Assembly: GCA_018057825.1 (NCBI GenBank)
Contig: JAGPCY010000051.1
Span: 1-59,479, forward strand
Length of the DNA: 59,479 nucleotides
From: Kofleriaceae bacterium
GTDB taxonomy: Bacteria > Myxococcota_A > Polyangia > Haliangiales > Haliangiaceae
Direction of reading: 5' to 3'
The notes beneath the pieces were generated by a model that saw only the letters and a list, made by a program, of their open reading frames with translations, made no database searches and was not told the origin of the DNA. Both the position numbers and the translations under genes were made by a program. Shown piece by piece: positions 29,877-40,449 of this stretch (positions are counted from its first letter, which is position 1; the number at the start of each line of letters is the position of its first letter).

Positions 29877-29877
29877 G

Positions 29878-30871: not shown

Positions 30872-30942
30872 TGAGGCCGGGAGGACTTGCACCTCCATCG
30901 CCGGCATGTCGCACCGGCGCTCTGCTCTTGAGCTACGGCCCC
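30872..30942 (-). tRNA. tRNA-Val(GAC) with C33 and T-loop TGC
   Basis: Acceptor GGGGCCG/CGGCCTC, D-stem GCTC/GAGC, anticodon stem CCGGT/GCCGG, loop GCGACAT giving GAC with C33. T-loop TGCAAGT has G55. The D-loop AAGAGCA lacks the usual GG. No CCA. Confidence 0.78.
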
Positions 30943-30961
30943 GTCACGGACGGTGAGGCGG

Positions 30962-31046
30962 CGGAAGGAGGGGGACTCGAACCCCCAACGTCAGCGATGA
31001 CGCACGCGATTAGCACTCGCGCTCCTCGTCCGGTCGGACTCCTTCC
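30962..31046 (-). tRNA. tRNA-Ser(GCT), long variable arm
   Basis: 85 nt class II tRNA. Acceptor GGAAGGA/TCCTTCC, stem CGCGA/TCGCG, loop GTGCTAA, variable hairpin GTCA/TGAC, T-loop TTCGAGT, discriminator G. No CCA. The most canonical of the array with tRNA-Ser(CGA), Asn and Tyr. Confidence 0.88.
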
Positions 31047-31335: not shown

Positions 31336-31884
<549 letters not shown>

Positions 31885-31974
31885 CGGCCGTGATGCTTCC
31901 TTTCACCGGTTCTTGAGACAGCGCGCGGTCCGGCCGGCGCGCGCCATCGGCCCGCATCGTGCGGGCAAGCTTCG

Positions 31975-32054: not shown

Positions 32055-32128
32055 TGCCTTCGGCGGGAGTCGAACCCGCAGCGCGCGAGGTTTGAGCTCG
32101 CTGACTCTGCCGATTGGTCTACGAAGGC
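32055..32128 (-). tRNA. tRNA-Leu-like (CAA), short variable loop
   Basis: Acceptor GCCTTCG/CGAAGGC, stem GCGAG/CTCGC, loop CTCAAAC giving CAA, 5-nt variable loop, T-loop TTCGACT. The D-region shares GACCAA-n-GGCAGAGTC with its two neighbours, pointing to local duplication. No CCA. Confidence 0.78.
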
Positions 32129-32132
32129 GTCG

Positions 32133-32206
32133 TGTCCTCGGTGAGATTCGAACTCACACTGCCCGGATTCTGAGCCCGGTGACTCCTGCCGTTGGTCTAC
32201 GAGGAC
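32133..32206 (-). tRNA. tRNA-Leu-like (CAG), short variable loop
   Basis: Acceptor GTCCTCG/CGAGGAC, stem CCGGG/TCCGG, loop CTCAGAA giving CAG, 5-nt variable loop, T-loop TTCGAAT. Same scaffold as the two genes downstream. No CCA. Confidence 0.78.
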
Positions 32207-32214
32207 GAAAAGGG

Positions 32215-32359
32215 CCTGGCGGCACCACGAACCGGATCGCCACTGCATTCGCGATCCCGAACCGCGCGCTCGATGAGCCTCCTCCAGCGGCCCACCCGCG
32301 GTTGGGGCGGGGGTGGGGCGAAGGTCGGACGAGGCGCCGATCCGGTTCGTGGGGCCAGG
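32215..32359 (-). ncRNA. Candidate Y RNA (Ro60-associated, YrlA-like)
   Basis: 145-nt RNA whose ends pair: CCTGGC/GCCAGG (6 bp, 32215-32220 with 32354-32359), an asymmetric internal loop, then a perfect 15-bp helix CCACGAACCGGATCG (32225-32239 with 32338-32352). On the minus strand the helix is followed by CCCTTTT, a terminator-like U-run. Inside the 98-nt loop, CGCGG-TTCGGGA-TCGCG forms a 5-bp T-arm mimic. Y RNAs are defined by such a terminal helix with an internal loop, and bacterial YrlA types carry a tRNA-like module. A Ro60 gene in the same array supports the call. A riboswitch or a decayed tRNA pair is the alternative. Confidence 0.5.
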
Positions 32360-32363
32360 AGAG

Positions 32364-32435
32364 TCAGGGTGGCAGGACTTGCACCTGCAGCCACTCGGTC
32401 CCGAACCGAGCAATCTTCTATTGAAATACACCCTG
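32364..32435 (-). tRNA. tRNA-Pro(CGG), T-loop TGC
   Basis: Acceptor CAGGGTG/CACCCTG, stem CTCGG/CCGAG, loop TTCGGGA with G37, T-loop TGCAAGT (G55). The D-loop is only 4 nt. No CCA. First of three or four Pro-anticodon genes in the array. Confidence 0.8.
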
Positions 32436-32437
32436 GG

Positions 32438-32511
32438 AGTGATCGGTGGGACTCGCACCCACTAGGACGAGGGTCACGGCCTCGCGCCTCGACGACTTCG
32501 GCCTCGATCAC
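32438..32511 (-). tRNA. tRNA-His(GTG) with C33 and T-loop TGC
   Basis: Acceptor GTGATCG/CGATCAC, stem CGAGG/CCTCG, loop CCGTGAC giving GTG with C33, T-loop TGCGAGT (G55). The base before the acceptor is C and the discriminator is T, so the usual G-1:C73 His identity pair is absent. Confidence 0.8.
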
Positions 32512-32722: not shown

Positions 32723-32798
32723 TGGTAAGGGTGGCCGGAATCGCACCGACGGCCTCACGGTCCCCGACCGTGCGTTCTAACTACTGAACTACACCCTT
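32723..32798 (-). tRNA. tRNA-Pro(GGG) with C33 and T-loop TGC
   Basis: Acceptor AAGGGTG/CACCCTT, D-stem GTTC/GAAC, stem CACGG/CCGTG, loop TCGGGGA giving GGG with C33, T-loop TGCGATT (G55), CCA encoded. A clear paralogue of its neighbour at 32613. Confidence 0.82.
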
Positions 32799-32805
32799 GT
32801 GACGG

Positions 32806-32930
32806 AGCAGGTGGCCGGATTCGAACCGGCGGCCGACTGGTGGGTATCCAATAACCATCCTGCGGCCGGCCCGCTCGCGCGGACGAGGGTCTTGCTGGAC
32901 GGAGTCGCTCTACCGCTGAGCTACACCTGC
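32806..32930 (-). tRNA. tRNA-like gene with 53-nt insertion, anticodon ACC (Gly?)
   Basis: Acceptor GCAGGTG/CACCTGC and D-arm GCTC-AGCGGTA-GAGC are normal, as are T-arm GCCGG-TTCGAAT-CCGGC and a 5-bp anticodon stem ATTGG/CCAGT with loop ATACCCA. Between position 26 and the anticodon stem lies an insertion (32853-32905) whose ends can pair (CCGTCC/GGATGG). The identity is tentative; C37 is odd. Either a processed intron-like segment, a fusion of two halves, or a pseudogene. Confidence 0.55.
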
Positions 32931-32942
32931 TGATCTCCTGCG

Positions 32943-33063
32943 TGCAGACGGCCGGATTCGAACCGGCATCTCGAGGTCCCTAACCTGTAACCCTCACGCG
33001 CCGGCCCGGTGACGGGCGAGAATTGGCGAGGGTATTCGTGTCCTGCCGTTAGACGACGTCTGC
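32943..33063 (-). tRNA. tRNA-like gene with 50-nt insertion, anticodon AGG (Pro?)
   Basis: Acceptor GCAGACG/CGTCTGC, D-arm GTC/GAC, T-arm GCCGG-TTCGAAT-CCGGC. The loop TTAGGGA reads AGG but the stem ACAGG/CCTCG has only three pairs. The insertion 32989-33038 sits at the same D/anticodon junction as in the neighbour and also forms a hairpin (ACCCTC/GAGGGT). Identity uncertain. Confidence 0.5.
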
Positions 33064-33116
33064 GTGTCGCCAGCTCGTGGCCGGCGCGGTCGGGGTGAAC
33101 GGTCACCCCGCGTTCG

Positions 33117-33365: not shown

Positions 33366-33613
33366 AGGTCGCACGCCGGCCTCCTGACGGCCGGTGCACG
33401 CGTGGGCGAAGCGCCGCCGAGTGGCGACGCGCGTGACGTCGGAGCGTCCGCACCGACGGGGTCAGGCCCGTCGGCCGTTGACACGCGCCGGCCACCTTCG
33501 GGGAGGTGCGCCCGGCGCTCGCTAGCTCGGTCGCCCGAGTGTCGCTACCTTAGGCCCGTTAGAGTACGAGAACCAACGTCGTTCGGCCCAGGCCGGCCGG
33601 GTGGCCGGCGTCG
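33366..33613. other. 248-nt noncoding gap with strong hairpins
   Basis: No tRNA or reading frame is recognised between tRNA-Arg(ACG) and tRNA-Glu(CTC). It contains an 8-bp hairpin CCGACGGG/CCCGTCGG near 33453-33474 and a nested stem GCGCCGG/CCGGCGC around CACCT/AGGTG near 33486-33519. It could be a structured RNA or the remains of lost tRNA genes. Confidence 0.4.
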
Positions 33614-33835: not shown

Positions 33836-35473
33836 TCAGGCGCGCGCGAAGTCGCCGATGACCGCGGGGGTCGCGGCGTCGAACCCGACGACGTCCAGCA
33901 TGCCGGCGTCGTTGGGATCGGCGATCGAGAACCCAGTCGAGGTCATCCCCACCACCACCACCTTCGCCGCGATGCCGCGCGCGTTGCGGTACGCGCGGAT
34001 CGCCTGGGCCGGGTGCACGCTCCCGGCCCACGTCTCGTTGTCGGTGTAGATCACGAACGTGTCGACCTCGACCCGGTTGCGCTCGGCCCAGATCATGGGC
34101 AGCGCGCAGTCGGTGCCGCCGAACGGCAGCTTGTCCACCTGGCGGCAGACGTCGTCGAGGCGCTGGCGCGGCGAGATCGCCAGCTCCTTCAGGCCACTGT
34201 CACCACCACCCCACTTGCCGCCGTAGCCGCCGGGGGCGGCGGTGAAGGCGACGAACTGGTGGTGGCGCTCGGTCGCCGCGGTGACCAGGGCCATCGCGGC
34301 CGAGCCGACCCGCGGGGTCAGGCCCGGCACGCCGGCGATCGCGCCGCCGGCCATCGAGCCCGACACGTCGAGCGCCAGGAGCGTGCGCTTGCCCGACGGC
34401 ACCACCGCGGCGAACGCGTGGTAGAAGGCGGCGTCGAGGGCGTCGACCACCGCCGCCACCGGCGCCCAGGTACCGGCGCCGCGGGCGCCGTGCCCCGACC
34501 GGTAGGTCGTGAGCGCGGCCAGCACGGCGATCGGGTGGACCTTGGCCTTGCGCAGCCGGTCGCGATCGCCGAGGCGATCGATCACGGTCCGCGCGGCCGC
34601 GCTGCCGGACTTGAGCAGCCCGACCCGGGTCATGGTCGCGAGGTTGCGGATCATGGCCGTCATCGGCATGTCGGCCAGGAGCGCCTCCCAGATCTCGGCG
34701 AAGGTCAACCAGGTGGTCGGCACCGCCTCGCGCGGGAGGCGGTGGGTCCGCACCAGCGCCGCGGCGGTCGCCACGTCGGTGGCGCGCTTGAGCTCCTCGG
34801 TCGCCGCCACCAGCGCCAGCGCCTCGTCGGCGCGAGCGGCGTCGGTCAGCGCGCCCGAGGTGACCCAGGCGAACAGCCGGTCGTGGGACGGCGAGGCTGC
34901 GCGCGGGTGGGCCAGCCGCAACAGGTCGCGGGTCGACCAGCCGTCGCGGTTGCCGTACTTCACGAGCTGGTAGGCCAGGTCGCGGGCCGGGCGATCGTTG
35001 AACCAGGCCGCGACCGCCTTGCGCATGCCGCGACCCCAGCCGCCGAAGCCCTGGGCGTAGGCCGCGAAGTGCAGGAGGTGCGTGCCGGTCCGGCACACGG
35101 CCGGCAGCGCGGCGTAGGCGGCCTTGCGGGTCGCCTCGTCGCCGAGCTTGGCGCACATCGCCAGCACGAAGATCGCGGGGTCGGCCTTGGGCGCCCGGCC
35201 GGCGGTCGCGATCGCGACCACCTGCTGGACCACGCGGGGACCGTCCGCGGTCAGGCAGCGGCGGACCGCCGCCGCGTTGTCGATCGTCAGCGCCTTCTCG
35301 GTGATGTAGAAGGTGCCGCCCTCGCTGCCGAGGACCAGGAACCGGTCGAGCCGGGCCCAGTCGTCGAGCGCCCAGACGTACCCGCCGGCGGCGTTGGCCA
35401 CCTGGGCGGTGCCGAGGATGGGCTGATCCTGCGGCGTGGCCTTGGTCGAGACGTGCTTGGTGAACTTGAACAT
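33836..35473 (-). CDS. rsr: Ro60/TROVE-domain RNA-binding protein (Rsr-like)
   Basis: 545 aa from ATG 35473, with GGAGAA about 7 nt upstream. The N-terminal TROVE domain (about 20-330), a ring of HEAT-like helices that binds misfolded RNA ends and Y RNA, shows GGYVWALDDWARLDRFL, ALPAVCRTGTHLLHF, VKYGNRDGWSTRDLLRLAHP and MIRNLATMTRVGLL. The C-terminal von Willebrand A domain has a metal site: DVSGSM, a distal Thr/Asp in GGTDCALP and an IYTDNETW strand. Bacterial Ro60 with Y RNA guides exoribonucleases and assists RNA quality control. The gene is embedded between tRNA-Thr(CGT) and tRNA-Asn, co-directional with the array, so it is probably transcribed with it. No rtcB or rtcR is visible nearby. 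Confidence 0.94.
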   Translation of the reverse strand: MFKFTKHVSTKATPQDQPILGTAQVANAAGGYVWALDDWARLDRFLVLGSEGGTFYITEKALTIDNAAAVRRCLTADGPRVVQQVVAIATAGRAPKADPAIFVLAMCAKLGDEATRKAAYAALPAVCRTGTHLLHFAAYAQGFGGWGRGMRKAVAAWFNDRPARDLAYQLVKYGNRDGWSTRDLLRLAHPRAASPSHDRLFAWVTSGALTDAARADEALALVAATEELKRATDVATAAALVRTHRLPREAVPTTWLTFAEIWEALLADMPMTAMIRNLATMTRVGLLKSGSAAARTVIDRLGDRDRLRKAKVHPIAVLAALTTYRSGHGARGAGTWAPVAAVVDALDAAFYHAFAAVVPSGKRTLLALDVSGSMAGGAIAGVPGLTPRVGSAAMALVTAATERHHQFVAFTAAPGGYGGKWGGGDSGLKELAISPRQRLDDVCRQVDKLPFGGTDCALPMIWAERNRVEVDTFVIYTDNETWAGSVHPAQAIRAYRNARGIAAKVVVVGMTSTGFSIADPNDAGMLDVVGFDAATPAVIGDFARA

Positions 35474-35609: not shown

Positions 35610-35671
35610 AGGACGCGGACAAGGCGCGGCCGAGGGGGCGTCGGAGTGATAACCCTCGGCCTTCGGCCCGC

Positions 35672-36968: not shown

Positions 36969-37015
36969 ACACCATTTTTGAGAAACTTCGATGTTGGCTT
37001 GTCGCTTGGCGTTTT

Positions 37016-37480
37016 CTCTGGAGAGGTTTGTCACCAAACCTCTCCCCGTCGGGGCCAGGTCCCCGACGGGTCCCCTCTCCGAGCTCTTGGAGAGGTTTGT
37101 CACCAAACCTCTCCTCGCCGGGGCCAGGTCCCCGGCGAGCCTCCTCTCCGAGACGCGTCCCTCCGGTCCGCCGCGCCCCTCCGGGGCGCGGTGCTGCAGC
37201 GTGAGCGTTGGGAGACCTCGAGGCCTCTCCTCGCCGGGGCCAGGTCCCCGACGGGTCCCCTCTCCGAGACGCGTCCCTGTGCTTTCTGGAGAGGTTTGTC
37301 ACCAAACCTCTCCCCGTCGGGGCCAGGTCCCCGACGGGTCCCCTCTCCGAGACGCGTCCCTCCGGTCCGCCGCGCCCCTCCGGGGCGCGGTGCTGCAGCG
37401 TGAGCGTTGGGAGACCTCGAGGCCTCTCCTCGCCGGGGCCAGGTCCCCGGCGAGGGCGTCTCGGAGAGGCTCCTCCGGTC
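37016..37480. repeat. Paired-hairpin repeat block (same family as 18.9 kb)
   Basis: Repeated modules of GGAGAGGTTTGTCACCAAAC-type hairpins followed by a GC stem around CCAGGT (CGTCGGGG/CCCCGACG or CGCCGGGG/CCCCGGCG). A longer unit with CCTCCGGTCCGCCGCGCC and a CTGCAGCGTGAGCG segment recurs at about 37141 and 37341 (period about 200). This is the reverse complement of the module at 18899-19232. The rest of the interval 36766-37659 holds the array promoter and no supported gene. Confidence 0.85.
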
Positions 37481-37659
37481 GGCTGGAGGTGCAGCGGGGG
37501 TGGGTGGCGACCTCGGACGGACGGCATCTTGGAGACGTTTGGCACCGAGCTGCGACCGGCCGGTCCGCTGGAGGTTCAGCGTGCCCACGCGGCGCAACCC
37601 GGCAACTTCCCTCGCGCCGTCGCTGGCGCCGGCCGCGGGCGTCGGCTACATCCGCTGCC

Positions 37660-40449
<2,790 letters not shown>

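Follow-up and report, generated by a model that had tools for sequence, protein, structure and literature searches.

The tRNA array and its Ro60 gene

The window analysed here, meaning the whole stretch of 59,479 nucleotides, is one contig (C80) of an 8.9-Mb assembly whose relatives include Kofleriaceae (Myxococcota) MAGs. Between positions 29877 and 36464 the minus strand carries a tRNA array of 27 tRNAs (ARAGORN), together with an HNH endonuclease gene and a gene encoding Ro60, the RNA-binding protein whose RNA partners are the Y RNAs, the latter gene product matching the Ro sixty-related protein RSR (PDB 2nvo) with an E-value of 1.3e-126. The array features considered below are as follows.

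31336..31884, minus strand: HNH endonuclease gene (Pfam HNH_5, 1.9e-15)
32215..32359, minus strand: the target RNA, inside-out and Y-RNA-like, between tRNA-Pro(CGG) and tRNA-Leu(CAG)
32807..32930, minus strand: second tRNA-bodied Y RNA
32944..33063, minus strand: tRNA-bodied Y RNA
33404..33589, minus strand: core-outside Y RNA with an effector resembling 23S rRNA helices 69-71
33836..35473, minus strand: Ro60 (Rsr) gene (Pfam TROVE 1.7e-44, vWA_Ro60 5.4e-62)
35617..35669, minus strand: short core-outside Y RNA in the Ro60 leader, GGGCCG..GGUUAUC..CCUUGUCC

Near-full-length Ro60 is present in 19 of the 55 relatives searched, and most of these 19 Ro60-bearing loci contain an array of like kind with tRNAs on the strand of Ro60. 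The HNH gene is present at 14 of 19 relative loci. Dense tRNA genes accompanied by an HNH gene are likewise found in the Mycobacterium tRNA array units, although the Kofleriaceae array differs from these in having Ro60 and several Y RNAs embedded within it; a text search of the Mycobacterium tRNA-array paper for TROVE and Y RNA found neither (PMC5966550). An HSP70-related protein with DUF3731 (36991-40449, plus strand) adjoins the array on the opposite strand. A probable tRNA-His (anticodon GTG) at 32437-32510 (minus strand), which is absent from the ARAGORN output, lies in a spacer that shows 96% identity with the nearest relative, G003.

The Ro60 gene is located 1.48 kb from the target RNA on the same strand, in agreement with the approximately 1.5 kb of the original prediction. 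That the target RNA occupies the only large gap in the array, as was also claimed, does not hold, since structured RNAs are found in the gaps at 32799-33115 and 33367-33612 as well.

Structure and conservation of the target RNA

The target RNA abuts tRNAs on both sides. Its two ends form the 6-bp and 15-bp helices that had been described, separated by an internal loop that is asymmetric as claimed, with 1 nt (32353) on one side and 4 nt (32221-32224) on the other. In the shorter helix CCTGGC pairs with GCCAGG on the minus strand, and the loop closed by the helices contains the hairpin noted earlier.

32354..32359, minus strand: 5' arm of the 6-bp terminal helix, pairing with 32215-32220; no pair lost in G003
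32338..32352, minus strand: 5' arm of the 15-bp helix, CCACGAACCGGATCG (partner 32225-32239), 15/15 pairs kept in G003
32250..32266, minus strand: conserved 5-bp hairpin CGCGG-TTCGGGA-TCGCG, stem kept in G003

The RNA has a GC content of 76%. Folding of 32207-32362 on the minus strand gives -83.0 kcal/mol (z -3.29), with none of 200 shuffles as good, and the plus strand of the region folds more weakly (z -1.91). The U-run reported after the helix does exist on the array strand as the T-run CCCTTTTC, directly 3' of the RNA, but it comprises four T only, tRNA-Leu begins right after it, and it was not scored as an intrinsic terminator. A search of 32100-32500 found neither an intrinsic terminator nor a promoter-like site.

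In G003 a homologue is found at the same place before the same tRNA-Leu; it aligns over 147 ungapped columns and folds at z -4.47. Forty of 41 pairs are kept in both sequences and one is broken, a recurrence that is more than chance. Four of the 41 pairs are changed on both sides, three of them in an apical helix at the centre of the RNA and one, from A-U to C-G, in the 15-bp helix. A lack of compensatory change in this helix had been set as the refuting outcome for the prediction, which withstands the test: a single pair of the 15 differs on both sides, and no pair is broken. The number of such changes falls from four to one when partners are slid by one column. Since a count of four is likewise attained in 33 of 500 letter shuffles, and only two sequences are compared, we regard these changes as supportive rather than conclusive. 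In the same comparison the target is 82% conserved, against about 88% for the tRNAs, and most spacers are near shuffle level. A DNA search of 30 family genomes identified G003 as the sole true homologue, and a family-wide search with a model of the target gave convincing matches in G000 and G003 only. The next best match of this model (G021 C400, 38.4 bits) lies away from any tRNA and resembles protein-coding sequence, and was judged to be due to chance.

A recurrent motif taken as the Y core and its candidate counterpart in the target RNA

Inspection of the gaps in all arrays revealed repeated occurrences of GGGCCG-n-GGUUAYC, mostly with CYUYGYCC ahead. Genomes of many phyla have this core motif (CYUYG-hairpin-GGGCCG...GGUUAYC) upstream of Ro60. 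Among 63 loci outside the Kofleriaceae (Actinomycetota, Polyangiaceae and others) it is present no more than 1 kb upstream of Ro60, on its strand, at 41, and matches within this distance number 78 on the strand of Ro60 versus 0 on the other. An RNA of Mycolicibacterium wolinskyi that carries the motif matches Rfam YrlA with an E-value of 4e-7, below the gathering score. Because of the strand distribution and this YrlA match, we take the motif to be the bacterial Y-RNA core, and from its distribution, together with the placement of the Ro60 binding site of Y RNAs in the lower stem (PMC4726728), we infer that it is the Ro60-binding site.

Many of the cores in these arrays sit inside RNAs that have D- and T-arms and in which the two ends form a full tRNA acceptor stem. 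A tandem artefact was rejected as the source of such core-inside RNAs, several of which stand alone between ordinary tRNAs. Nineteen core-inside RNAs, with 93.7% paired cells and a covariation score of 0.301 that none of 500 shuffles equalled, were used to build a covariance model, R1, from which the target was excluded; also left out were L022_12870, in which the core was misplaced by MAFFT, and one long-loop core. Both tRNA-bodied RNAs of the window are training members of R1, scoring 48.6 bits (32944-33063) and 41.3 bits (32807-32930, which also matches Rfam tRNA with 48.9 bits), and both pair 7/7 in the acceptor stem. The former RNA has acceptor, D- and T-arms, and in both RNAs the Y core replaces the anticodon arm. 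tRNA bodies with the same replacement were also observed at L071 7908-8032 and 8037-8160 and in Minicystis rosea. Sorangium cellulosum is another carrier of core-inside RNAs.

When R1 was run over the window, the target RNA ranked third, after these two RNAs, with a match to its centre whose parts are listed here (all on the minus strand).

32272..32336: candidate Y core of the target (R1 with filters off: 24.0 bits, E 7.3e-4 across 59 kb)
32331-32335 / 32277-32281: H1, GCCUC/GAGGC
32319-32323: conserved CUUCG
32311-32317 / 32291-32297: apical helix, with three pairs changed on both sides in G003
32288-32293: conserved GGGCCG
32272-32276: UCAUC, replacing UUAYC

The homologue in G003 matches R1 with 18.6 bits (E 0.0048). 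Across the whole genome the match to the target falls short of significance (18.5 bits with filters, E about 2), so that it depends on location, and its support is position, homologue and paralogue. The paralogue is an element adjoining the homologue in G003, found with the target model (26.3 bits, E 0.0068 in 375 kb), which keeps the intact core GGGUUAUC; because of this intact core, the target is likely to be a duplicate whose core has diverged. One homologue and one paralogue are the known relatives of the target.

The target and its G003 homologue agree in GGGCCG, CUUCG and most of H1, and H1 has one G-A mismatch in G003. GGUUAYC reads GCUCAUC in the target and GAUCACC in G003. In vertebrate Y RNAs Ro60 binding is abolished by changes of conserved nucleotides (PMC4726728), and the altered UUAYC, which could mean that Ro60 binding has been lost, is our chief doubt. 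The terminal helices of the target contain neither half of the Ro60 motif, and its candidate core is internal. Identification of this RNA as a Y RNA is supported as regards kinship, given that a core model built without the target matches its centre and that the G003 paralogue has an intact core, but not as regards the YrlA layout that had been proposed.

A probable inside-out Y RNA and its alternatives

Structure, covariation, core match, paralogy and synteny, which the sequences show directly, are the basis of the reading that we favour, according to which the target is probably, if by no means securely, an inside-out Y RNA whose core has diverged, co-transcribed with the array and putatively bound by Ro60. 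The ends of the RNA, comprising the 6 + 15 bp helix and the hairpin, would be the effector, and the internal Ro60-type core would be capped by the variable apical hairpin. If the RNA is co-transcribed with the tRNA array, it may be set free when the flanking tRNAs are processed, by cleavage at the 3' end of tRNA-Pro and at the 5' end of tRNA-Leu; this is the simplest route because tRNAs abut the RNA on both sides and 32100-32500 contains no promoter- or terminator-like site. The Ro60 protein that the array encodes would then occupy the internal core, and the long outer helix would stay exposed and may act as a tether or effector.

The alternative that survives best, although we think it unlikely, is a repurposed or decaying Y RNA that arose by tandem duplication, an origin to which the intact paralogue in G003 points, and that no longer binds Ro60 through its core. 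Its long helix would have taken on another role, for instance as a spacer or as a site at which RNase III cleaves the array transcript. The departure from UUAYC in both species, set beside its retention in the G003 paralogue, would fit such decay, as would the R1 score of the target, the weakest of the three core-inside RNAs in the window; against it, GGGCCG, CUUCG and most of H1 have not changed, length is constant over the 147 columns and the apical helix has been maintained through three changes on both sides. Still less probable is that the RNA is a structured spacer or terminator with no relation to Y RNAs, within a GC-rich tRNA array, and that the core model matches it by chance. The high GC content (76%), the genome-wide E-value of about 2 and the U-run after the helix are what this explanation would lead one to expect, but it has to contend with the 0 terminators in 32100-32500, the tRNA-Leu directly after the RNA, the core E-value of 7e-4 within the window, the covariation with G003 and the paralogy with an RNA whose core is intact.

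A YrlA-type Y RNA, with terminal helices that bind Ro60 and a centre that mimics tRNA by way of a T-arm, is very improbable, for although terminal helices with an asymmetric loop, a nearby Ro60 gene and the TTCGGGA hairpin speak for it, 32215-32359 gives no match to the YrlA model (RF02553) at E<=10, has no D-arm and no conserved T-loop, and lacks the GGGCCG/CYUYG motif at its ends. The hairpin, although present in the loop at 32250-32266 (minus strand) as described, is not supported as a T-arm copy: its loop has no A58, and TTCGGGA becomes TTGGGGA in G003. Rfam searches at gathering and permissive thresholds left the target without a family match. Weak YrlA matches at 32773-32835, 32880-32997 and 30892-31012 overlap tRNAs or bridge the two tRNA-bodied Y RNAs, and were rejected.

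The inside-out Y RNA that we favour shares with YrlA/bacterial Y RNA (RF02553, PDB 6CU1) its proximity to Ro60 and the combination of a Ro60-type core, putative in the target, with a separate effector. In known bacterial Y RNAs, however, the core is formed by the two ends of the transcript (PMC8394870) and the tRNA module is circularly permuted (PMC11472068), the effector occupying the middle, whereas the putative Ro60 site of the target is internal, at 32272-32336, an inversion of that arrangement. The target also differs from YrlA in having no D-arm, conserved T-loop or Rfam match. Core-outside Y RNAs upstream of Ro60 (Mycolicibacterium, Actinomyces, others; L082, L078, L085) likewise carry the GGGCCG...GGUUAYC motif on the Ro60 strand, but the halves of their core are in the opposite order to those of the target, with the effector between them. 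The tRNA-bodied Y RNAs found in arrays of the Kofleriaceae and Polyangiaceae (32944-33063, 32807-32930; L071 7908-8160) are core-inside and belong to the same array; they have a complete acceptor stem, D- and T-arms and an intact GGUUA, in contrast to the 6 + 15 bp helix and diverged core of the target.

The core-outside RNA at 33404-33589 carries the helix 69-71 sequence CCGUAACUAUAACGG..CCUAAGGUAGCGA in its effector. Counterparts occur in relatives at L022 11120, L023 11128, L025 11108, L028 11437 and L033 4991 (coordinates in Ro60-sense orientation), of which the L033 copy is identical to E. coli 23S rRNA at 29/29 positions. Copies in L028 and L035 vary in length downstream of the helix 69-71 sequence, and CAGGCTGTCTC, which continues some copies, is presumably also 23S rRNA-like. 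The effector of the target gave no long match in its own genome when sought as a copy of a known RNA, in an assembly that has no 23S rRNA match.

Taken over the whole array, these RNAs raise the possibility, which we put forward tentatively and with more doubt than confidence, of modular Ro60 guide RNAs, in which one core, in either topology, is joined to differing mimics of translation RNAs. The mimics might be un-permuted tRNA bodies, 23S rRNA helices 69-71 and the long-helix module of the target, on equally tentative grounds. If this were so, the array would supply RNAs that aim Ro60 at enzymes or toxins acting on tRNA and rRNA, or that serve as decoys for them. A core inside an un-permuted tRNA body, alongside an RNA that copies 23S rRNA, would mark the Ro60 core as a module that can be moved between RNAs, and comparison of natural effectors on one core would make the purpose of Y-RNA effectors testable. 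A literature search, which covered the central Y RNA papers incompletely, returned no description of the Y RNA variants of this array.

Two further kinds of element were observed. Core-inside Y RNAs of a mini-helix type are present at L022 11853, L028 11977 and L033 6692 (Ro60-sense), and seem to combine an acceptor helix with a T-arm but to lack a D-arm. A CUUGCCC-hairpin-GGGCCG element at 31942-31969 (minus strand), between tRNA-Leu(GAG) and the HNH gene, is a partial look-alike of the Y core, and its counterpart at L022 6230-6257 (minus strand) displays a compensatory change.
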